From NCBI RefSeq assembly GCF_000003605.2, contig NW_003111473.1:291208-334126 (forward strand): a stretch of 42,919 nt of DNA, written 5' to 3'. The stretch's first letter is position 1, and every line of letters starts with the position of its first letter. Source of the DNA: Saccoglossus kowalevskii. Lineage: Eukaryota; Hemichordata; Enteropneusta; Harrimaniidae. A program made the position numbers and the translations under genes. Of the stretch, positions 8,226 through 36,212 are shown piece after piece. Below the pieces are notes generated by a model that was not told the DNA's origin, did not search any database, and saw only the letters and a list, made by a program, of their open reading frames with translations.

Positions 8226-10697
8226 ATGTGCAAATCGTGGAAGTGTATTCTTATTTGGGTACTAGTTTTAGTCATATCACCGTCTAGAGGTTTGTTAATA
8301 ACATATGCGCATTTTTGGCGTGAGTTTTTGTGGCTGTCTTTTTTGATATATGTAAAAAAAACTATCCCTAGTTGATCACTGTAGCCTGTAGCAATGTTTT
8401 TGTTTACATTTATTTTGTGGATGTCATATTAAGTTAGTACGTATGACCATGTAGTACATTGATATTGGTGTCAGAAACTACATTAAATGTTGCCATGGAC
8501 ATACAACCGTATATGTCGATCCATGTTTAATACTATGTTCTATGTTCAATGTTCAACATTAAGAGTTACTAGTACCGGTGTGTCGGCTTACTCCAGTGTA
8601 GTGGGTGGGTGTGGCATTAATGTGCATATAGTAATAAAACGCAGGCCCAGATTCTAAAATTAATCTTATCATGTTTATGTCTTGCCATTATTTTTCTCTT
8701 CTTACTTTTTATTCAAAGTATAATAAATGGATTGTTTAAGTTGATAAACTGTGATACTGTACTAGATCAAAAATAACATATCAATGTTATTGTTATTCCA
8801 TCCTGCTGGAGTCCAGAGGCTGATGCACAACTTTCCTTTTACTGTTTATTTTTTGTAAAAAGAAATTAACCAGACAAATTCCTCCAGATTTCAAAATAAA
8901 AGTTTTTGAGTGTGCAGGGGAAAAATCTAAAATAAACTTATTGTCAAACACGATAATACTTTTATTGAGGAAAACTTTTCAATTCAAAACACCTACTGTT
9001 TGCTCCATTATATAAGCAACATTAGTTAATGCTGTGCTGCAGACAATTCTAACATCGGTTGACACTATTATGCAGACATACTAACATAGTCTATGTTTTA
9101 TTAATCTCTCCTACAGCTTCAATTCCTCGTCCATCATGTGCAGATAATGATTTTATTTGTGATGACGGACAATGTTTAAATAAGGATTGGGAATGTGATG
9201 GATCTGAAGATTGCCAAGATGCCTCAGATGAAGTGAACTGTTGTACGTATTGTTAAAGGCCTCCTAACCACATAGTTATTAATAACTGCATAGATAACTA
9301 TTGTAAACTTAAATCCACATATATCTTTCAGTCATGCACCTTAAAATCAATTGCGTTGGAACCATGTGAATGAGCACCATTGTTTTTCTAGAGTGAGTTG
9401 CTGTTGTCAAACAATTGATAAAATTTCTCTATTCATCTCATGGCATCGGCTTCAAATATAAATGTAGTGGAATAATGTATGAACAGAAAAACATGTATTA
9501 GGACATTCTAGTTCATTGTGTGATATGTTTCACACTCAGTAATTCATTAGTGTATGACATTATGATATTCTATCTGTATTATAGTTGTAAACTCAAGTGC
9601 AGACATTATAAACTGTCCAGATACTGACAATATATTTGTATGCGATGATGGAAGAACATGTATCAAAAGTGACAATGTATGTGATGGTGTAAAAGACTGT
9701 TTAGATGGCATAGACGAACAATGTGGTGAGCTCTTATTACATTGATATTGTCAAATAGATGCTGCTATTAAGAACTTTTCAGACAGTCTGTTAGGACTGG
9801 TTTCTGTGTCAAAATCTCCCATCTCTACGTAACAAAACCAATAAATAATAGATATTAATAACTATACAAACTGACAGGTGTTATGTCAAGTCAACGATTA
9901 TCAGAAAATAAACAAATATACAGAATCAAAGAAAATAATTTTCAATTACATTTAGACGTACTCTTGTGGTACATATATTACTTATATGAACGGTCAAGGA
10001 TTTCCATGCTTAGTAAGGCAAAAGAATGTTTACAACAGTTCAGGTGATGTCATCATTTTTTTGTGGTTCAGGGTTCAGTGCAAGTGATGTCATCATTCTT
10101 TGTGGTTCAGTGCAAGTAATTTCATTATTCTTTGTGGTTCAGTGTGAGTGATTTCATCATTCTTTGTGGTTCAGTGCACGTGATGTCATTCTTTGTGGTT
10201 CAGTGTGAGTGATGTCATCATTCTTTGTGGTTCTCGTACTGCTCAAAATACATAATCAATATTCATCAAAACTATACATTTACATAGAAATTTCAAAAAC
10301 TTTGAAGTAGTGAGGTAAGTGCAACACTTTAAGTAACTTTCCCCATTTTTTGATGTGTTTCCCAAGCTTCCCCGTTTTATTCGCAATATAAAATCACAAG
10401 AAACATCTTCACCAACTATGTCATTACATCATAATTCATTCAAGTTTATGTGTTTTTATTACAGCAATAAATACCTCTGCATCAGGAATGACAACCACCA
10501 TCATTATATTATCAGTTATTGTTTTGTTTCTTGGCGGCTCCCTCTTTGCAATGTTGGTGTACACTCAGCAAAGACATAATGTTAGTATTCAAAGAAGACA
10601 TCACAGAGGTCATAGAAGGTCAAGAGAAATTGAATTTGTCAGCAGTCCAGATATGTTCAATGTAACAAACAATGAAGAAAGTCTGACAGTGCTGTGA
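8226..10697 (+). CDS. Two-LDLa type I membrane protein, complete (4 exons, 187 aa)
   Basis: Exons 8226-8289, 9117-9242, 9585-9725 and 10465-10697 total 564 nt and join in frame, all at phase 1 junctions, the usual pattern for LDL-receptor class A exons. Residues 1-22 form a signal peptide (hydrophobic [12 protein letters not shown]). LDLa 1 spans Cys 29, 36, 41, 48, 54, 63; LDLa 2 spans Cys 74, 83, 89, 96, 102, 110. Both carry the acidic calcium-binding signature ([13 protein letters not shown] and [13 protein letters not shown]). N66 and N113 sit in N-glycosylation sequons. Residues 121-142 form one membrane helix, followed by a His/Arg-rich cytoplasmic stretch and a C-terminus ending TVL, which fits a class I PDZ ligand. 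By family such modules bind basic ligands in a calcium-dependent way; the ligand here is unknown. The overall size resembles small receptors of the CD320 or LDLRAD type, without a clear ortholog. The start was chosen because the overlapping ATG at 8219 runs into a stop within the exon. Confidence 0.88.
10042..10236 (+). repeat. ~35-bp minisatellite in the last LDLa-gene intron
   Basis: Five to six imperfect copies of a unit built around GTCATCATTCTTTGTGG and TTCAGTGNNAGTGAT lie in the intron between 9725 and 10465. Units differ by small deletions. Confidence 0.8.
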
Positions 10698-10736
10698 CTG
10701 GCGATGAAGAAAGTCTGACAGTGCTGTAACTGGCAA
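10672..10736 (+). repeat. 32-bp tandem duplication spanning a stop codon
   Basis: The segment GAAGAAAGTCTGACAGTGCT followed by GTRACTGGCRATG occurs twice in direct succession. The first copy holds the last codons and TGA stop of the LDLa protein (10695-10697); the second lies wholly in the 3'UTR. Confidence 0.85.
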
Positions 10737-10903
10737 TGGGATTTTTAACATACAATTTATTATCAGCAATGCTTGGCTCTGACCATGGGGTAGGCAAGAC
10801 AGCCAAATTTGCATGGTCAAGCGTCAAATACAGTAAAAATATGCAGCATATGTTGTACAATGTATTAAATTCTAAGTTCAGAAAACATGATAAATATGTC
10901 TGT

Positions 10904-12890: not shown

Positions 12891-13100
12891 AGATTAGATC
12901 AAAAAGAAAACTATTTACCGGTAGTACAAAATACAGGTAATTTGACAAACCTGGTATTGAAGATTAGATCAAAAAGAAAACTATTTACCGGTAGTACAAA
13001 ATACAGGTAATTTGACAAACCTGGTATTGAAGATTAGATCAAAAAGAAAACTATTTACCGGTAGTACAAAATACAGGTAATTTGACAAACCTGGTATTGA
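12891..13100 (+). repeat. 70-bp tandem repeat, three identical copies
   Basis: Units begin at 12891, 12961 and 13031 with AGATTAGATCAAAAAGAAAA. The copies appear identical, implying recent duplication. Confidence 0.95.
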
Positions 13101-13499
13101 AGATCAAAACAATCAGGCTTTGAAGAATGTCAAGAAAAATCAAAATCACATTTTTCACAAAAAATATTCAAGAACAGGTGATTGTCATTGTATATAATCC
13201 CCTTACTGTAATCAACATTTGAGAACAAGGAAGGGAAAACATGCCAGGTGTCTATAGCCTGAACAATGACATTTTGTTATTGGTACACTTTATCCAATAA
13301 TGGTATTCAAAATTTAATGCCGGTTAATATGAATATCATAACTTGTCTGAGTCAAAGTCTGTCCAAGATACAGGCAAGGACATACTAAAAACAACAAACA
13401 AATGGTCACTAATTTGAATAAAATAAAAAAAAACAATTGACAGATATCAGTTTTCCAACATGATTTATAATAGTCGTTTTGATTGTAAATAAACCATTT

Positions 13500-18002: not shown

Positions 18003-19730
18003 GTTTTTATGGAGATTGTAAACCATCATGGTTTTATTCATATGGAAATTAAACGGCCATGGTTTTATTCATATGGAAATTAAACCGCCATGGTTTTTAT
18101 TCATATGGAGATTGTAAACCATCATGGTTTTATTCATATGGAGATTGTAAACCGCTGTGTTTTTTTTTTCAAATGGAGATTATAAACCACTATGGTTGTA
18201 TTCATATGGAGATTGTAAACAGCCATGGTTTTATTCATATGGAGATTGTAAACTGCCATGATTTTATTCATATGGAGATTGTAAACCGCCATGGTTTTAT
18301 TCATATGGAGATTGTAAACCGCCATGGTTTTTTTCATATGGAGATTTGTAAACCGCCATGATTTTTTTCATATGGAGATTGTAAACCGCCATGGTTTTAT
18401 TCATATGGAGATTGTAAATCGTCATGATTTTTTTTATATGGAGATTGTAAACCGCCATGGTTTTATTCATATGGAGATTGTAAACCGCCATGGTTTTATT
18501 CATATGGAGATTGTAAACCATCATGGTTTTATTCATATGGAGATTGTAAACTGCCGTGTTTTTTTTCTTCAAATGGAGATTATAAACCACTATGGTTGTA
18601 TTTATATGGAGATTGTAAACAGCCATGGTTTTATTCATATGGAGATTGTAAACACCATGATTTTATCATATGGAGATTGTAAACAACCATGATTTNNNNN
18701 NNNNNNNNNNNNNNNNNNNNNNNNNNNNNNNNNNNNNNNNNNNNNAAACCGCCATGATTTTTTTCATATGGAGATTGTAAACCGCCATGGTTTTATTCAT
18801 ATGGAGATTGTAAATCGTCATGATTTTTTTTATATGGAGATTGTAAACCGCCATGGTTTTATTCATATGGAGATTGTAAACCGCCATGGTTTTATTCATA
18901 TGGAGATTGTAAACCATCATGGTTTTATTCATATGGAGATTGTAAACTGCCGTGTTTTTTTTCTTCAAATGGAGATTATAAACCACTATGGTTGTATTTA
19001 TATGGAGATTGTAAACAGCCATGGTTTTATTCATATGGAGATTGTAAACAACCATGATTTTATTCATATGGAGATTGTAAACAACCATGATTTTATTCAT
19101 ATGGAGATTGTAAACCGCCATGGTTTGATTCATATGGAGATTGTAAACAACCATGATTTTATTCATATGGAGATTGTAAACCGCCATGGTTTGATTCATA
19201 TGGAGATTGTAAACCGTCATGATTTTTTTCATATGGAGATTGTAAACCGCCATGGTTTGATTCATATGGAGATTGTAAACAGCCATGGTTTTATTCATAT
19301 GGAGATTGTAAACAACCATGATTTTATTCATATGGAGATTGTAAACCGCCATGGTTTGATTCATATGGAGATTGTAAACCGTCATGATTTTTTTCATATG
19401 GAGATTGTAAACCGCCATGGTTTGATTCATATGGAGATTGTAAACAGCCATGGTTTTATTCATATGGAGATTGTAAACAACCATGATTTTATTCATATGG
19501 AGATTGTAAACCGCCATGGTTTTATTCATATGGAGATTGTAAACCGCCATGGTTTTATTCATATGGAGATTGTAAACCATCATGGTTTTATTCATATGGA
19601 AATTGTAAAATACCATAGTTTTTTTTTTCCATATAGAGATTGTAAACTTCCATGGTTTTATTCATATGAAGACTAAACCATCATGGTTTTATTCATATGG
19701 AGATTGTAAACCGCCATGGTTTTATTTATT
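18003..19730. repeat. 33-bp minisatellite, ~50 units, interrupted by an N gap
   Basis: The unit is TTCATATGGAGATTGTAAAC followed by CGCCATGGTTTTA. Because 33 is a multiple of three, both strands stay open for hundreds of codons (11-residue periodic peptides); these are artefacts of the repeat, not genes. Sub-variants form higher-order blocks: a five-unit, 165-bp block repeats around 19216 and 19381, and the segment 18360-18690 recurs after the gap at 18750-19070. On the minus strand each consensus unit contains AATAAAA and ACCATGG. Confidence 0.95.
18696..18745. other. Assembly gap (50 N)
   Basis: A run of 50 N inside the 33-bp minisatellite; true length unknown. Confidence 1.
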
Positions 19731-22040: not shown

Positions 22041-22580
22041 AAACCTTGTCCACTGCCACTGTATCAGATCTCTCATTGTTTAAAAACTGCAAACATGATT
22101 CAACCTTGTCCACTGCCACTGTATCAGATCTCTCATTGTTTAAAAACTGCAAACATGATTCAACCTTGTCCACTGCCACTGTATCAGATCTCTCATTGTT
22201 TAAAAACTGCAAACATGATTCAACCTTGTCCACTGCCACTGTATCAGATCTCTCATTGTTTAAAAACTGCAAACATGATTCAACCTTGTCCACTGCCACT
22301 GTATCAGATCTCTCATTGTTTAAAAACTGCAAACATGATTCAACCTTGTCCACTGCCACTGTATCAGATCTCTCATTGTTTAAAAACTGCAAACATGATT
22401 CAACCTTGTCCACTGCCACTGTATCAGATCTCTCATTGTTTAAAAACTGCAAACATGATTCAACCTTGTCCACTGCCACTGTATCAGATCTCTCATTGTT
22501 TAAAAACTGCAAACACGATTAAACCTTGTCCACTGCCACTGTATCAGATCTCTCATTGTTTAAAAACTGCAAACATGATT
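22041..22580. repeat. 60-bp tandem repeat, nine nearly identical units, overlapping the AMZ stop codon
   Basis: Units start every 60 bp from 22041 (ACCTTGTCCACTGCCACTGT core) and differ at very few bases. Sixty is a multiple of three, so all frames without stops run through. The unit at 22521-22580 encodes the last 20 residues of the minus-strand archaemetzincin; the other eight lie beyond its stop. The outermost units read TTAAACC at the junction while the inner ones read TTCAACC, which on the minus strand is the difference between TAA and GAA. Confidence 0.97.
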
Positions 22581-24547
22581 CTAACCACACAATTGAAGCT
22601 TCCATCTTCTTTGTTGGAAAATACTTCTGCACATGGTGACAGATTAGCAATAATGATTGATATCTCGTCCTGATGTTAAAATCACAGAGATGTTGAAGTT
22701 TTCTAAGGCAGATTGGACACAGAAACAGTGGCTGCGACATAGCTTCCTTTACTGAGCTGCTTTCATTCATAGCACACTCAAAGAAAACACAATGTGCCAG
22801 TCCAAATGTATGACAGACTTCATGGGTCATCACCTGGAATTATAGTAAAATTAATGTTTATTCAGAGTTGAAAAATGCCCACTAAGATTTATTCTAATTA
22901 TGCTCAGACTTATTAGTTGAATTGACACACAGTTAATTAGCACAGGGTAAGACTAAGAAAACATGAACAAACACTAAGAAATGGCTAGTCTGAGCTCAAT
23001 CTGATCTGTTTTTATGACCTTCTCTGACCTTAGTACAAACTAACAAAGTATGTGCGAATGGCTAGTATGGACTAAGCGCCATCTAGGATTACCTTTGTTC
23101 ATTTGAAATGTCACAGTGTGAGGCCTGCTTATCGCCACAGAACTCACACTGGGCAGGGGGTTCTTTCACTGCTAGAAAGGGGTAGACAAGGCAATAGTAC
23201 TGGAAATGAAATACACATAAACCAAAATATCGAGTTAAAGCTCCTAGCTTTTATACCTCTCAAAATAATTACATGAATGAATGAAATTGTGCTGTTCATA
23301 TCCAAGAAACAATTCCGAAGACATTTGAGTATCGCAATTTAGCAAATTTGAGGGGCAAAATGGCTGCCAGTCAGTCATATATGATCAAATGGTAAAGGTA
23401 TTTCTGCCAAGTTTGAATGAGATTGGCAAAGCAAGTCTTAGAATACCGGTACTCCAAGTGCAACAAAGGCATTCCCTTTTTAAATCAATATTTATTTATT
23501 TCATTCAATGGCAGTTGAATCCAGCCAGCCAATCAACAAGCAGAGTCCACGAAAACGTCATTTGAAATTTTTTAAATATTATTCAATCAGCCAATAGAAG
23601 CCCCTCAATTTGAATTGTGAAAGGAATAAATTTATTCAACTCTGACAGAGGCTATTCCGGGTTCAGTTGTTTTCAAATAATAATAACATCACCTTGATGA
23701 GTTTCCACAATATTTCTCCATCCACTTCAACAATATCATCGTATGCCTTGTTGTCATGGTAACATTGTGGTTCATAGCGTCCAAAACTGAACACAGCAGA
23801 TCGTTGTTTATAGGATGCTTCTCCAAGTACAAAGTTGAGATCGTCACTAGGGTACAAATCTGTCCACGACATACCAACGATGTAGTGAAAACGATGTTTT
23901 AAAAACTTTTTCAATTTTGTCAGCACATCAGTGACAAGCACTTGTTTCTTCCCAGTCACTTTGTGATATCGTGAGGTAACCTCCAGACTCTCCACACTGA
24001 TTTCTTCTTGTGTTTCAACTTCCATTCCATGAAAGAATGTCTTCAGAAAATCACATAGAAACTGCAGAAGAGGTATCCCACCAACCTTAAAGTCCAGAAT
24101 GTGTGACGGGAATTCTCCAATTGGTTGGAAGAAAATGATGTTTCTCTTAGAACTGAAGTTTAATGCAAACAACGAGTTCATTTCTCTCGCCACTTTCCAT
24201 TGTGGAAAGCCTTGTCTTTCGGAATTGGCGATCTTATCTTTGCAGATAAACAGTTTACTTTTATCTCTTTGAGATGACTGGGGTTTCGCCAGATTATTCC
24301 TCTCCGGAGGGGATGGATCAAGGCATGCTTCTGACATCATGAACAAATTCTGAATCTGTGTGTCGAATTTATCAATACTTCCAACCAGTACACGAACCCG
24401 GTTGTGACGAACGCGTAGATCACGTCTACAAAACATTAGTCTCACGAAGTACCAAATGAAGAATCCAAGCGTAATGAAATACAATGTGTAGAAAGAAACA
24501 ACGAACCAGTCGAACCAAACTAATACAAGATCATTATAAACGCTCAT
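22519..24547 (-). CDS. AMZ: Archaemetzincin-like metalloprotease with N-terminal membrane segment (2 exons, 389 aa)
   Basis: Exon 1 runs 24547-23693 (285 codons, donor AAG|GTGATG, phase 0) and exon 2 runs 22833-22519 (acceptor AATTCCAG, stop TAA). Residues 289-300 are HEVCHTFGLAHC, the HEXXHXXGXXHC zinc site of archaemetzincins. Cys 305, the Met 307 turn and the LCPICLRKL zinc knuckle (Cys 324, 327) follow with family spacing. Upstream, TDLYPSDDLNFVLGEAS is the conserved pre-catalytic segment. Known members are soluble aminopeptidase-like zinc proteases. Here residues ~11-39 are strongly hydrophobic and followed by CRRDLRVRHNRVR, predicting a membrane anchor with the catalytic part cytosolic. 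AMZ1 versus AMZ2 is not decided. The C-terminal 20 residues are encoded by the first unit of a 60-bp tandem array. All catalytic residues are intact. Confidence 0.9.
23114..23151. other. Perfect 9-bp hairpin CAGTGTGAG/CTCACACTG in the AMZ intron
   Basis: Inverted 9-bp arms separated by 20 bp. The CAGTG ends recall hAT termini, so this may be a deleted hAT relic. Confidence 0.4.
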
Positions 24548-27379: not shown

Positions 27380-30300
27380 ATGTGTATAGCTGTCATGTCT
27401 TGGTGTATGTGGTTAATCGTTACTGTCATTTTATTGTATTTACTGAGGAATATATACCTTCCTGTTCCAGTTGCATTGTATGGGAAGTACTATTCAAAAC
27501 GGGGACCATGGTACTTCGAAAAGCGAGCAGTATTTACCCTGTTGATGAAGCTCCGTAAATGGAAAGTCGAACGCAACGCTTCTCAGTCCGATGCTGCTGG
27601 CTATGGGGTTCGTTCAAGGGACAAGATAGAGGACATGGACCGTGCCCAGAAACTGGACAACACGCCCAAGGTACAGTATACCAGTGATTATTTCTATCAA
27701 TTTATAATATCAAAAAAATCATTTTTAAATCTTTAAATTAAATGCGTACAACTTCAGTGATGGTGGTATGCGTGAATAATAAATAATCCATCTTCATTGA
27801 AATTATTATCTTTCTTATTTTTTCTAAAATTTGTATCCGGGAGGATTGGAAGTTTTCAACTAATCATATGTTTCAATTGCGTGACTTTAAAATGTCAAGT
27901 TTTCAAGTTTTACCCATTTTCTCTAAATCTTTGTTCTTATAACTATTCCTTAGACAGTTATTTAGATTACATAACATTAAAGGTGAAACACTATAGGTTA
28001 TGAACCTAAGGTTCTGAAACACATTACCCATTGAACTGATCAGTTAGATCGGTTGATTATACAAATTATACATATACAAACATTTTATGAGAATAATAAT
28101 TACATATTCCTGAAGATTATTGCCCATGCACACCTGTACTGCTCACAGTTTGTGTAATACACTAACAACGATTTTTTCAAAAGTATTTAAACATTATTGT
28201 ATACTAAAACACCCTGCATTTGTCACCTCCCTCATAATTCTCAAATGGTCCATCCCTTAACAGCTTGGATGCTAATGATAGCTTTCACCTTATTATATTA
28301 TTAATGTTTCTACTATTGAGTTCTAACTTTGTTGTATTTGTTATGAAATAAATATGCCAACATGGAAAATATGGTAACTCATACCCTCCAACAATGCTAT
28401 GGCTACTAAATCTGTAGTCTTAAAATAATCTAAAGGACTTTCAATGAAGCTCCATATATTTATTAGTCATCCCTTGTGCATAGCTGCCCTGAAATTGATT
28501 GGTCAAGACCTTTTATGTATATCTGACCCCAACATTTTGATTGCTTAGTTCCTATGTACAGCTGACCTTCAGACATTGATTGGTCAGTCCCTATGTACAA
28601 CCAACCCTCAGATATTGATTGGTCAGTCCCTCTGTACAACCAACTCTCAGATATTTATTGGTCAGTCCCTGTGTACAGCTGACCTTCAAATATTTATTGG
28701 TCAGTCTCTATGTACAGCTGACCCTCTGATATTGATTGGTCAGTCCCCGTGTACAGCTGACCCTTAGATATTGATTGGTCAGTCTCTATGTACAGCTGAC
28801 CCTCAAATATTTATTGGTCAGTCCCTATGTACAGCTGACCCTCAAATATTTATTGGTCAGTCTCTATGTACAGCTGACCCTCTGATATTGATTGGTCAGT
28901 CCCCGTGTACAGCTGACCCTCAGATATTGATTGGTCAGTCCTTGTTTACAGCTGACCCTTAGATAATTAATTGTCAGTCTCTATGTAGAGACAACCCTCA
29001 GATATTGATTGGTCAGTCCCTGTGTACAGCTGGCCCTCATATATTGATTGGTCAGTCCCTGTGTTCAACTGACCCTCAGATATTGATTGGTCAGTCCCTG
29101 TGTACAGCTGACCCTCTGATATTGATTGGTCAGTCCCTGTGTACAGCTGACCCTCAAATATTGATTGGTCAGTCTCTGTGTACAACTGACCCTCTGATAT
29201 TGATTGGTCAGTCCATGTGTTCAACTGACCCTCAGATATTTATTGGTCAGTCCCTGTGTACAGCTGACCCTCAGATATTGATTGGTCAGTCTCTATGTAC
29301 AGCTGACCCTCTGATATTGATTGGTCAGTCTCTATGTACAGCTGACCCTCAGATATTGATCAGTCCCTATGTACAGCTGACCCTCTGATATTGATTGGTC
29401 AGTCCTTGTTTACAGCTGACCCTTAGATAATTAATTGTCAGTCCCTATGTAGAGACAACCCTCAGATATTGATTAGTCAGTCCCTGTGTACAGCTGGCCC
29501 TCATATATTGATTGGTCAGTCCCTGTGTACAGCTGACCCTTGGATAATTATTTGTCAGTCCCTATATGTAGAGCTGCATGACCCTCTGATATTGATTGGT
29601 CAGTCTCTATGTACAGCTGACCCTCTGATATTGATTGGTCAGTCTCTGTGTACAACTGACCCTCTGATATTGATTGGTCAGTCCATGTGTTCAACTGACC
29701 CTCAGATATTTATTGGTCAGTCCATGTGTACAGCTGACCCTCAGATATTGATTGGTCAGTCTCTATGTACAGCTGACCTTCTGATATTGATTGGTCAGTC
29801 TCTATGTACAGCTGACCCTCAGATATTGATCAGTCCCTATGTACAGCTGACCCTCTGATATTGATTGGTCAGTCCTTGTTTACAGCTGACCCTTAGATAA
29901 TTAATTGTCAGTCCCTATGTAGAGACAACCCTCAGATATTGATTGGTCAGTCCCTGTGAACAGCTGGCCCTCATATATTGATTGGTCAGTCCCTGTGTAC
30001 AGCTGACCCTCCGATATTGATCAGCCACTGTGTACAGTAAATTCTCAGATACTGATCTGTTCTGAACAAAGTTCACGGCAACCATGCTCTGTATATTTCT
30101 AATTTATTTCTAATTCTAACCTCTTGAAATGTATTTTTCTCTTATTTTTTTGAAATAAATAATAAATGTATCAACAAAGAGTTAAATAAATATACATATA
30201 CAATAGTGTACACATACAGTGTGATGTTATGGTAAAAATTAAATTGTCATATTTAAATTTCTCCCTTGTGTAATTCAATTTTGATCTGAGAGCCACAATC

Positions 30301-33300
30301 CAAATCCCCTCATGAATCTGTGAATTTATATTGTTCATTATCAATAATATTGTTTTCACATATACTGTATTGAAACCTACATATCATATAGTATTTATGT
30401 CATTCAACTAGGATTAAACTACATGCTGGTATGTATGATGCCTGAACACCATGTATGCTGAGTTAGGCAGGAACTGACTGTGTAGTCTAGTGATTTGTGC
30501 ATCAGTACTGAATTCATATCTGGACATGTGTTATTATTTGACAGGCAGTAGATGCAGTGTATTTTAATGGCTCCAACAAGGATGGTGCTTACATCATCAC
30601 TGCTGTATCCAGGAGACCAAAGAAAGTAGCTCAGCTTGTTCTCTTTCTCTACATCCCCGATGTTGGATTGTTTCAATTACCAGAGCATCCTGATTCCACT
30701 GTGTATGAATGTAACCCAGACAGACATGAAGCAGGTGGTCTTTGCATTGAAGTTGTTACCCCAATGAAAGAATGGAAAATAACATACAATGGCAAACTAA
30801 GGTGAGCAGTTTGAATCAACAATGGCAAACAGATTAAGGTAAGCAGTTTGAATCAACAATGGCAAACAGATTAAGGTAAGCAGTTTGAGTCTGCAATGGC
30901 AAACAGATTAAGGTAAGCAGTTTGAGTCGGCAATGGCAAACAGATTAAGGTAAGCAGTTTGAGTTGGCAATGGCAAACAGATTAAGGTAAGCAGTTTCAG
31001 TCGGCAATGGCAAACAGATTAAGGTAAGCAGTTTGAGTCGGCAATGGCAAACAGATTAAGGTAAGCAGTTTGAGTCGGCAATGGCAAACAGATTAAGGTA
31101 AGCAGTTTGAGTCGGCAATGGCAAACAGATTAAGGTAAGCAGTTTGAGTCGGCAATGGCAAACAGATTAAGGTAAGCAGTTTGAGTCGGCAATGGCAAAC
31201 AGATTAAGGTAAGCAGTTTGAGTTGGCAATGGCAAACAGATTAAGGTAAGCAGTTTGAGTCGGCAATGGCAAACAGATTAAGGTAAGCAGTTTGAGTCGG
31301 CAATGGCAAACAGATTAAGGTAAGCAGTTTGAGTCGGCAATGGCAAACAGATTAAGGTAAGCAGTTTGAGTCGGCAATGGCAAACAGATTAAGGTAAGCA
31401 GTTTCAGTCGGCAATGGCAAACAGATTAAGTAAGCAGTTTGAGTCGGCAATGGCAAACAGATTAAGGTAAGCAGTTTGAGTCAACAATGGCAAACAGATT
31501 AAGGTAAGCAGTTTGAATCAACAATGGCAAACAGATTAAGGTAAGCAGTTTGAGTCAACAATGGCAAACAGATTAAGTAAGCAGTTTGAATCAACAATGG
31601 CAAACAGATTAAAGTAAGCAGTTTGAGTCAACAATGGCAAACAGATTAAGTAAGCAGTTTGAGTCAACNNNNNNNNNNNNNNNNNNNNNNNNNNNNNNNN
31701 NNNNNNNNNNNNNNNNNNGTCAACAATAGCAAACAGATTAAGGTAAGCAGTTTGAATCAACAATGGCAAACAGATTAAGGTAAGCAGTTTGAGTCGGCAA
31801 TGGCAAACAGATTAAGGTAAGCTGTTGGATTTGGCAATGGCAAACAGTTTAAGGTAAGCAGTTTGAGTTGGCAATGGCCCATACAATAACTGGATTATTT
31901 CTGTATTGATAAAAGTGGTGTACTGTAAACCATTTTATTTGCACGAGACATTTCATTGAGATTAAACAGCATTTCCTGAGGGGGTGGTATTGAAATGCAT
32001 TGGTCACATCCTACCCATTATTCGTCACTGCATGTTAAAATATATACGAAAGATACATATTGTAGTCAAGTACAAATAAGAGCTAAGTGCCATGACTGGT
32101 CCATTATAGTAAAGACTTCATGATTGAGTTTCAGCAAGATACATCATAAGATTTTTTTATTTTTAGGAAAGGTCCAAGGAATGAATGGAGTGATGATGAC
32201 ACTGACCTGGTTACTGCTAAATTTGAGTTTATGTAAGATTACAATAATTAATTAATATACCCTTGATTATACTCTTTATATTCCATATAAGTTTCAAAGT
32301 TGAAATGAAGGAACACAAAATTGTCAAGGTGTTTGTATTTTACCATAATTTGGAGTACAAATTCTAGAACAATATGTCATAGCAAAGTTGAACATAAAGT
32401 TTTTTCTTTACCAATATGGTATTCTCTGTTCTCATTCATTGTAGCTGGATTAGCTATACAGATATTTATGATTTTGATGTGGATCAGCATCCGGATACCA
32501 TAATTGATGCAGTTGCTAAGCAACCATGGAGCAGAGAGTTCTTCAGGCTACTCAGAGAGTAAGTGGTGTTAATAAAATTTATATTGATATTGTGTCCAAA
32601 ATGTCTTTATTGTTCTATGACAATGTACCTGGTGTAATAGCTTTTTAGTCAAGTTTGAAAACTATCAACCTGTATAAATTATTAAACTTTACTGACTGAT
32701 GCTATTTATATATTGAATAGAATGGTCCCTGCAATCATAAATAATATTTGGTTTAATTAAAAACCTCTCAATTCCTCTTTGAAATAAAAACTGGTTACAA
32801 GTTTAAATTTTAATATTCAATTTATTGATTCAATATTGCTCACCTTCAATCAGAACATTATATATGACTTTTGATTTGCTTGTAGCATTTATAAACAAGT
32901 TCACTGTTGATGACACCCACAAATCTGATTAAATGCATGCTTGTTTCCACTCTCATATTAGCTTAATATGTTTTTATTTGATTTCAGTGCTCATCAGACA
33001 CATTATGAGCAGTTTGGTGAATGGAAAGGCAAAGTTCAACTTGAAGGTCATAATGACATTGAGTTAAATATGAAGGGCATGAGAGACCATTCATATGGTG
33101 AGTACATACCATTAAAATCTCAATTCATATGGTAGGTACATATCTCATTGTTGTATTCGGTACACCACTCATTGTGCATAGGTACACCACTCATTGTGCA
33201 TAGGTACACCACTCATTGTGCATAGGTACATGTTGGTTAAAAAGTTGTTTGAAAGATGAGGGTTACAAAGATTATTTTGCAATGCAGTTCAGTTTAGCAA

Positions 33301-36212
33301 GCAGGATTGTTGAAATAACATGCAAGGCATAGCAAAGGAACGTTAATTCAGTTTTTTACCCTTAATCTTCTTTATAAATTTATATACTGCACTATCAAGA
33401 TTTGTATTAAAGTGCTTTTCAAGAAATAATTTATTTATAAAATTACCATTCATGAGCAATCTGGATGTTGTATTAAATAATGATTTATGTTGTTTTTTAG
33501 GTCTATTGTTTTGTGTGCTATAGAGCTTAAAGCGTATAATTTGATCAGAATCTGGATTTCTAACTGTACAACTACTATTGGGAAAATGGAACATTTTTGA
33601 GAGTAACTTTGGTAATCTCATATGCAGTTATGTTGATAGAGGGATGTTGACAAGCTGAAACTTTTTTGTATAAGGCCATATGACATATAATAATGCAGTT
33701 ACCTGGAAGTCTAGAAATTGTCTTCTATTGGTAGCATGTGAGATTTGACAGGTGGCAGTAGCAGGTTTCACATTAAACTCCCCAAAAAGTGATTTGTTAC
33801 AAAGATATTGTCTTGAATTTAGTTGTAGATAATTAGGGTTTATACTAAGCACACTGAGACAAAGTGGTACACGTTATAACTTGTAGAAACTTTAGTAATG
33901 AGACTGTATGAAATGGCACAATGCAGTATTCTTGAATATTGATAGTTGTACAAAGACGATTTTGTTCCTCCTTGCATGAATCTGTCTAGAGTTATACAGT
34001 GATTTTACTATGACTGTAATTGTAGCCAAGTTCAGAGCCTTTAAAGATTGATGCACTCTGCCTCAGATACCCTAGCTGTGATTTTAAAATGTCACACATA
34101 CCATTTAGCAATATGATGTTGATCCATTAGTAACTTATATTCGTAGGTAAACACCGTGAATGGGGTGATTTTCATCGCTATGGTATTCATATGATTCACT
34201 TGGAAGATGGCACTTCAATTAATTTGGGGAAGATTTGTTTACCTGAAACCTTATCAGAGTAAGTTATTTGTTTACCAACATTATAGTCATGGATTTAGAG
34301 TGATAATCAGTCTAATTAAAAAAAAAATTAAAAACATGTACATAGTGTGACTATTCTTCATTAAACTTACGAGTATATGTATGAATAGAAGTTTGGAATG
34401 TTTAGTTTCTCCTGTTATCTATTTTAGATTCACTCGATTTACAATTTAGATTCTCCTATTAGATATTATTCAGCTAGTTCGTTCAGATTATCCAGTAATT
34501 CAAGTCAGATTATCTTGTGTTATCTAGTTTTGTCTCAGTCTGTATAAAGACAGGAACCTTTTTTCATGTTATATTATGGTGCAATGCAACATGTTAAATC
34601 TGTTTTCAGTTTATCTATTGGATATGTGATGAATACTAAGGGTAAAAAAGAAGCCATTTCCTGGACTGATATGGATCTACCAACTCTTGGTGAAGAAGGG
34701 ATACCACCAAAGGAATATCAAGTTAACTTTCTAGCAGGTGTGTTTGAATCATCTAGGCAGCCATATCTCTATTGAAACTTGAAACATAGATGTCATAGGA
34801 CACTGCACAGACCTAATAGTTTTTAGGGTAAAATCAGTACATGTTATCTAATTTGCATAATTAATTACTTTTCAGCTTTTGATATTTCAAGTAGTCACAT
34901 TCAATGAAACTTGGTACATAGATACTCTAGGACTATGCAGAGATAGAATGTTTTGGGGTAAATATTTGTGCATATTAATTACCTAATTTGCATAATTAGT
35001 TATTTTTCAGCTTTTCCACTGATATCAAGAGTACTAATCATCACATTTCAATGAGCCTAGGACTATACAGAGACCCAAATAGTTTTTGGTAAATATTTAT
35101 GCATATTAATCACCTAATTAACATAATTAACCAACTTCCACACTGATATGTCAAGTACTGATCATCACATTTGAATAAAATTTAGTACATAAATGCTCTA
35201 GGACAATAGACAGGCCTGATTAATTTTTTGGGTAAAATCTGTTCATATTAATTCCCTAATAAGCATAATAATTCATAATGTTTTAGTTCTAATCACATTT
35301 CAATGAAACTTGGTACATAGATATTACATTACGCAGGCCTTATTAGTTTTACACTCAAATCTGTTCTTATTGATTACCTGATTTGCATAATTAGTTTTCA
35401 TCTTTTCCATCAATATCTCAAGTACCAGTAATTTTTGATTAATTTTTAATGTGTCTTCAATACTCTCAGCACACAGGACTTCTTTCTAAGCTTTCTTTGA
35501 TTATAATAAGTGATGTTTTACTGCCATTGTGATATTTCCAGATGGCAGTAAGTGGTGTTTCACTGCCATGGTGATTTTTCCAGATGGCAGTAAGTGGTGT
35601 TTCACTGCCATGGTGATTTTTTCAGATGGCAGGAAGTGGTGTTTCACTGCCATGGTGATCTTTTCAGATGACAGTATTGTCAGACATTCAATGCTATTCC
35701 CATTTTTGATTGACAGGTGAGAAGAAATACAACATGAAAGTTCAAGTTCATAGGGCTCCTATATTCTACATGGGGTTTGGCTGGGAAGCTAGAATCTATG
35801 AGCAAATGGTCAGTGTCAATGTCAATGGTCAAAAGGGACGAGGAATTGCAGAGTTTTTGTACAGGTAAAATCAAACTGAATTTTTTTCAGAATTACAATT
35901 TGCATGTATATATTATATTGAGCATCTCCACCGTAATATTTGTTCACATTGAGTGAAACATTTGTAAAATAACAGAACCGTCATATATCAGTGTTCAAAG
36001 GGTCACATGACAGAAACACCCCTGTTAATTTCTAGAGATAAATGAGCATCTTTTTGTGAAATATCCTCACGAATGCCCTCAAAAATTGAAATTGACAAAA
36101 ACAGTAACATATATAGTGATCATTGATAGATTAGGTTTTGGATAACAGTATATCCTTTTATCTCAGGTATTACTTAGGATGTCCAAGAGATGCACAGTTA
36201 AGTTTTGATTAA
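27380..36212 (+). CDS. Membrane-anchored protein of a DUF7064/PEP-synthase-N-terminal-like type, complete (9 exons, 423 aa)
   Basis: Exons: 27380-27670, 30545-30801, 32167-32232, 32445-32558, 32988-33097, 34147-34258, 34610-34737, 35717-35864, 36167-36212. They total 1272 nt and keep one frame across eight GT-AG junctions with matching phases. Residues ~5-23 form an N-terminal membrane helix, then YGKYYSKRGPWYFEKRAVF. The next block, AVDAVYFNGSNKDGAYIITA, opens a beta-rich domain with WKITYNGKLR and, later, HREWGDFHRYGIHMIHLEDG and IFYMGFGWEARIYEQM. The end is YYLGCPRDAQLSFD. I recall similar blocks preceding the pyruvate-phosphate-dikinase domain in invertebrate proteins labelled putative phosphoenolpyruvate synthase, but no such kinase domain is present here, and the family link is unverified. 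Function is unknown. Introns 1 and 2 carry large minisatellites. Confidence 0.85.
28484..30062 (+). repeat. 39-bp minisatellite (~39 units) in intron 1 of the 423-aa gene
   Basis: Unit: TGATTGGTCAGTCCCTGTGT then ACAGCTGACCCTCAGATAT. ATTGG (inverted CCAAT) is kept in most units. A block of about 12 units repeats roughly every 465-470 bp, marked by the variant AGTCCTTGTTTACAG at 28937, 29401 and 29871. The 13-residue periodic frames on both strands are by-products. Confidence 0.95.
30784..31878 (+). repeat. 37-bp minisatellite built on the exon 2 splice donor
   Basis: Unit: AATGGCAAACAGATTAAG, then GTAAGCAGTTTGAGTCGGC. The first unit overlaps the end of exon 2 (AATGGCAAACTAAG) and its genuine donor GTGAGCAGTTTGAATC (30802). 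About 28 further copies follow, most with a consensus-quality AAG|GTAAGC. An N gap interrupts the array. Confidence 0.95.
31669..31718. other. Assembly gap (50 N)
   Basis: Run of 50 N inside the 37-bp array; true length unknown. Confidence 1.
33159..33224 (+). repeat. 22-bp tandem repeat, three units
   Basis: GGTACACCACTCATTGTGCA plus TA, three identical copies in intron 5. Confidence 0.93.
33343..33852 (-). pseudogene. Antisense coding-like frames in intron 5, possible retro-derived remnant
   Basis: Two successive minus-strand frames, 33852-33628 (74 codons) and 33621-33343 (92 codons), are separated by only a few bases and have mixed, coding-like composition (HATNRRQFLDFQVTALLYVI; FKLYSTQNNRPKKQHKSLFN). 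No splice sites join them. This could be a frameshifted fragment of an inserted gene or mobile-element ORF. No family motif recognised. Confidence 0.25.
34775..35430 (+). repeat. Degenerate ~125-130-bp tandem repeat, about five units, intron 7
   Basis: The motifs CATTTCAATGAAACTTGGTA, CTCTAGGACTATGCAGAG, TAATTTGCATAATTA and TTTTCAGCTTTTCCA recur in the same order with many substitutions. An old array. Confidence 0.8.
35508..35672 (+). repeat. 42-bp tandem repeat, four units, next to exon 8
   Basis: Each unit has TTTTCCAGATGGCAGTAAGT then GGTGTTTCACTGCCATGGTG. ATGGCAGT and ACTGCCAT make a hairpin within the unit. Each unit also pairs an acceptor-like TTTTCCAG with a donor-like GTAAGT six bases later. 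The array ends 45 bp before the acceptor of exon 8 (35717). Confidence 0.85.

Follow-up and report, generated by a model that had tools for sequence, protein, structure and literature searches.

We found that in a predicted DUF7064-like gene of Saccoglossus kowalevskii the junction between exon 2 and intron 2, including its 5' splice site, recurs directly downstream as a minisatellite with a 37-bp unit, in which all 27 assembled downstream units carry a donor core and from which any extension of exon 2 introduces an in-frame stop codon. We consider the array likely to be an exon-edge minisatellite similar to the 'mirages' described in lancelets, born by duplication and slippage at the edge of exon 2, with the first donor probably remaining the main one. 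The window, i.e. the whole stretch of 42,919 nucleotides that was analysed, contains the gene and the array at the positions given in Table 1.

Structure of the array

The initial annotation had placed a minisatellite starting within exon 2 and carrying its donor at 30784..31878, and we find the array there, at 30788-31878. The first repeat copy (30788-30820) joins the 3'-terminal 14 coding bases of exon 2 to the first 19 bases of the intron. It is followed by 27 assembled units, each starting with AAT[G/A]GC, the first at 30821 and the last ending at 31872, and by a fragment reaching to 31878. The exact consensus is present in 11 of these units, and 10 of the 37 positions vary. The sequence GTAAGC is kept in 27/27 units and the complete junction AAGGTAAGC (AAG|GTAAGC) in 23/27, bearing out the earlier statement that almost every copy keeps it; one G is missing in three units (GT at 31430, 31577 and 31650) and one unit (31614) reads AAAGTAAGC, with AAAG where the others have AAGG.

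The exon copy lacks the 4-bp insert of the downstream units (AGAT in 26/27, AGTT in one), which would shift the reading frame there; this suggests coding constraint. It furthermore has GTGAGC where the array units have GTAAGC, but its intronic tail (GAATCAAC) is identical to that of the next copy, a combination to be expected if the exon part alone is constrained. Within the array, the tail variant AAC occurs in unit 1 and in a block formed by units 18-24. The two final units (31799 and 31836) diverge from the inner block.

The assembly interrupts the array by a gap of 50 N, into which the unit starting at 31633 runs; an unbroken series of 23 units precedes the gap and four more come after it. 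The step across the gap is 92 bases and matches no whole number of 36- or 37-bp units, leaving the copy number open, and the 50 N are probably a placeholder rather than a measured length. The estimate of an approximately 28-fold multiplication in the initial annotation corresponds to the junction copy plus the 27 assembled units. The gap and its out-of-register flanks could also point to an array created in the assembly by misjoined reads, which we consider extremely unlikely given the contiguous units on both sides with their individual variants and the presence of 21 separate tandem arrays in the window (30 TRF rows merged by hand), together making up 19.5% of its length; the doubt is limited to the exact length of the array.

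Table 1. Positions of the gene, its exons and the arrays discussed in the text, in coordinates of the window.
Feature	Position	Strand	Description
DUF7064-like gene	27380-35868	+	eight exons, 409 aa; predicted; modelled by eye, phases checked
Exon 1 of the DUF7064-like gene	27380..27670	+	predicted; open frame, donor AAG|GTACAG
Exon 2	30545..30801	+	phase 2 at donor; its final 14 bases (30788-30801) belong to the first repeat copy
True 5' splice site GTGAGC	30802..30807	+	junction AAG|GTGAGC; from the gene model
37-bp minisatellite	30788..31878	+	exon/intron junction copy, then 27 assembled units that each have GTAAGC
50-N assembly gap inside the 37-bp array	31669..31718		from the assembly sequence
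Exon 3	32167..32232	+	66 bp, phase 2 at both ends; from the gene model
Second donor-side duplication, end of exon 5	33089..33231	+	ATTCATATG|GTGAGTACATA recurs 34 bp on as ATTCATATGGTAGGTACATA (18/20 bases); enters a 22-bp array
42-bp array in intron 7	35507..35676	+	lies 40 bp upstream of the exon 8 acceptor; GTAAGTGGTGTT occurs in two copies

The gene and the consequence for its reading frame

The predicted gene model encodes 409 aa and replaces the 423-aa gene of the initial annotation. Its product scores 19.8 against a cut-off of 24.7 for Pfam DUF7064 and 15.2 against 27 for DUF7065, both below the gathering score, and we therefore file the gene as DUF7064 'like' only. Exon 2 searched alone was not assigned to any protein family, the search of the PDB with the protein of the gene gave no match up to E = 1, and Rfam gave no match at the gathering threshold.

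A tblastn search of the protein against 72,556 plasmid records with E up to 1e-3 returned one match, on a Sulfitobacter plasmid (E 3e-4), and the protein encoded there shows 24% identity to the gene product with E 1e-11 in a single pairwise comparison. The end of exon 2 aligns with this homologue (WKITYNGKL versus MNMRFEGEV), and a gap of eight residues lies immediately beyond the exon end. This alignment suggests the coding end being plausibly ancestral and the array derived, so that copying plausibly proceeded from the exon into the array, as judged from this one distant homologue.

Exon 2 ends in phase 2, and an extension past 30801 enters an in-frame TGA at 30803-30805, which overlaps the true donor. 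Translation confirmed the previously proposed premature stop upon use of a downstream donor: the products terminate at codon 184 for the four of 27 donors translated, and products of the remaining 23 necessarily include that TGA as well.

The copies are strong donors by U1 pairing

The only donor score used was the energy of the RNA duplex formed with the 5' end of U1. By this measure the true donor reaches -9.6 kcal/mol, the 23 copies with AAG|GTAAGC -9.5 kcal/mol and the four damaged copies -4.5 kcal/mol, while 0.3% of the 2611 other plus-strand GT sites in the window score as well as the copies. The copies are strong donors, equal to the true donor within 0.1 kcal/mol. The proposal that they are often better than the true GTGAGC does not agree with these values, and on U1 pairing we rule out copies as better donors.

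In the predicted RNA fold, for which eight of the 28 donor sites were computed, seven sites including the true donor lie above the local mean in accessibility (0.62-0.73 versus 0.48) and the eighth is at 0.40. Many near-equal donors, most of which look accessible in this model, could compete with the true donor, which speaks against the first donor dominating. The initial annotation had suggested the copies as possible decoys for U1 snRNP; in a wider form of this idea, they act as such decoys or guard against premature intronic polyadenylation without being spliced. It would fit with the 24 strong sites for U1 binding predicted within 1.1 kb, made up of the true donor plus 23 copies, and with the accessibility of seven of the eight donors examined, and we nevertheless judge it very unlikely.

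The share of pyrimidines upstream of AG dinucleotides is 0.28-0.39 in the array (105 AGs, 30839-31640) versus 0.56-0.78 at the seven real acceptors of the gene, so that the array supplies donors but poor acceptors. Acceptors, micro-exons or recursive splice points provided by the array were considered and are unlikely, as its AGs are without pyrimidine tracts.

Another reading takes the array as a functional rheostat whose length would determine what fraction of the transcripts carries the stop, and hence the output of the gene, with selection keeping the donor copies. The retention of GTAAGC in every unit and the stop following from every downstream donor are in line with it. However, if the 10 variable positions are scattered at random over the 37 positions of the unit, the six-position GTAAGC core remains invariant with P = 0.13, and the chance of no more than one variable position falling within AAGGTAAGC is P = 0.22, so that selection on the donor copies is not supported by either test; moreover, the G at -1 is lost in 4/27 copies. 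We consider a rheostat unlikely, also in the light of the comparisons made below.

Junction duplication exceeds chance

In a direct-repeat test, the 35 bases round each junction were compared with the next 68 bases for seven donors and seven acceptors, using dinucleotide shuffles as control. The exon 2 donor gave a score of 46, reached by 0/500 shuffles, and the exon 5 donor a score of 30, reached by 0/20000. Matches were thus present at two of seven donors, the remaining five giving P values of 0.15-0.96, and duplication on the acceptor side was found at none of the seven acceptors within the 68 bases tested (P 0.12-1.0). Comparing the consensus of the array with the 14 splice sites of the gene, the exon 2 junction scored 59, reached by 0/500 shuffles, and the runner-up 14; the value of 59 is inflated, the 55-base junction query having reached 11 bases into the second copy. 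The repeat of the exon 2 junction directly downstream lies far beyond the shuffles and exceeds chance.

Comparison with known exon-edge minisatellites

Lancelet 'mirages' in the Adh3 and globin genes span exon/intron borders and have many units with AG/GT signals, their lengths differ between haplotypes, and Adh3 data together with globin RT-PCR are stated by the authors to suggest regular splicing (PMC3087553), which argues against a rheostat in the comparable array described here. Further cases in lancelets are PGBD5 (PMC3902484) and, as cited in the latter source, troponin C. The array shares with the mirages of Adh3, the globins BflGb6 and BflGb9 and PGBD5 a tandem repeat spanning an exon/intron boundary, predicted in our case, and copying a splice signal, as well as edge units left out of homogenisation (here the exon copy and the units at 31799 and 31836), and its 37-bp unit falls into the range of 10-72 bp quoted for Adh3. 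It differs in residing in another gene and in having more copies than the BflGb6 haplotypes, for which 6 and 3 units are given. The G+C content of the window is about 34-35%, and that of lancelet, ~41%, lies above it.

In human ABCA7, a VNTR in intron 18 directly borders exon 18 and takes in its donor, with a donor in the 25-bp unit; transcripts retaining one unit were seen, in which the frame is shifted and a premature stop follows, and this retention was independent of VNTR length (PMC5954066). The same source describes VNTR length as inversely correlated with expression, together with more exon 19 skipping, and the alternative forms together as exceeding the canonical form in 90% of cases in one brain area and in 31% of hippocampal tissue (PMC5954066). 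As in ABCA7, the repeat unit directly adjoins the exon and includes its own donor; in contrast, the stop is immediate here, the TGA overlapping the donor, and the effects on splicing and expression, putative here, were measured for ABCA7. The ABCA7 data cut both ways for an array acting as rheostat: the correlation of length and expression favours it, and the independence of unit retention from length speaks against it. The initial annotation had proposed a truncated or decay-targeted product and a tuning of expression by array length; its frame consequence is confirmed and the proposal has a human precedent in ABCA7, where, however, skipping of the next exon rather than unit retention depends on length. 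By analogy, alternative forms exceeding the canonical form in ABCA7 caution against regarding an array of this type as harmless.

The repeat unit of the human IFI6 (6-16/G1P3) minisatellite is 12 bp long, and extra units accordingly stay in frame. This minisatellite is reported to supply several donors, of which two downstream units are used, resulting in three mRNA species (PMC4526556, citing Turri, Cuin and Porter 1995). The array in the DUF7064-like gene likewise multiplies donor sites, the use of which is predicted here, but unlike in IFI6 its 37-bp unit and the stop codon make any extension truncating. Published cases in other genes (lancelet, ABCA7, IFI6) thus already cover both this anatomy and the consequence proposed for it, and the array is a real further example.

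We favour a model according to which a short duplication covered the 14 coding bases at the exon 2 end together with the beginning of intron 2, and slippage or unequal exchange would then have enlarged it to an array with the 27 further assembled copies. The exon copy would have been fixed by coding constraint, and the intronic copies would have drifted and become homogenised. The first donor, being closest to the exon body, would probably yield most of the mature mRNA, and use of a downstream copy, the first copy being the likeliest, would give a minor transcript with the TGA right after the junction, which would be open to nonsense-mediated decay. Longer arrays may, on the analogy of ABCA7, raise skipping of the 66-bp exon 3, which would join exon 2 to the start of exon 4 at 32445 and keep the frame, exon 3 having phase 2 at both ends.

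The locus offers a natural experiment on how the spliceosome chooses one donor among about 28 alike, with each wrong choice marked by a stop. It also provides an example, perhaps from outside the lancelets, for the growth of repeats at splice junctions as raw material for new introns and possibly also for length-dependent expression.

Other arrays in the gene and in the window

The duplication at the end of exon 5 is the second on the donor side of an exon in this gene. The consensus of the 22-bp array that it enters has no match to the exon 5 junction, the link to the 22-bp units being a TRF row with period 44 and 85% matches. We compared five arrays with the 14 splice sites for an origin from splice junctions (70 comparisons, P values uncorrected). 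Against these sites the best P value was 0.088 for the 22-bp consensus, at a site other than its own exon 5 donor, and 0.064 for a 39-bp array; a 33-bp array upstream of the gene gave P 0.008, uncorrected, owing to eight matching bases next to donor 2. The 13-mer AGTAAGTGGTGTT is present exactly in two units of the 42-bp array (35547-35601) and at the exon 4 donor (32558), 3 kb apart, and the window's plus strand has no copies other than these three; the match has a P value of 0.00025 (20000 shuffles), or about 0.02 corrected for 70 comparisons, and the donor consensus accounts for some of its bases. For the 42-bp array, derivation from a junction of its own intron 7 is not shown by this comparison.

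Within the gene, three of four arrays lie at most 40 bp from a splice site (random mean 0.53, P 0.008), the 40-bp limit having been set after the distances were seen by eye; by a stricter count one of four overlaps a splice site (random mean 0.24, P 0.22). Across the window, three of 21 arrays touch a coding edge (random mean 0.84, P 0.05), the edges of two other frames being approximate. The excess of arrays at coding edges is suggestive only. The two donor-side duplications in one gene (exons 2 and 5) and two arrays over stop codons of other frames led us to consider that minisatellites here arise preferentially at exon edges, perhaps coupled to transcription or splicing, with the exon 2 array acting as a length-variable switch among full-length, stop-carrying and exon-3-skipped mRNA, a reading to which we attach little credence.

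One of the arrays over a stop codon, with a 60-bp unit (22042-22586, minus strand; 9.1 copies, 98% matches), starts within the final 20 codons of an archaemetzincin-like gene, for which Pfam Peptidase_M54 scores above the cut-off; an in-frame TAA ends copy 1 and the last copy, and the intervening copies are open in frame. In an inferred intron of this gene (22834-23692, minus strand), AGGTGATG is present at each of the two splice ends, AAG|GTGATG and CAG|GTGATG, resembling a short duplication that intron gain would leave behind. The other, a 32-bp repeat of 2.2 copies (10670-10738, plus strand), covers the last eight codons and the stop of an open reading frame, reading NEESLTVL followed by TGA, with TAA in the second copy.

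A 33-bp array at 18008-19726 comprises about 52 copies and has another 50-N gap inside; as 33 is a multiple of 3, a reading frame stays open on each strand, over 327 and 331 codons if the gap is included in the count. A 70-bp repeat at 12891-13104 has 3.1 copies with 100% matches and is therefore probably recent.
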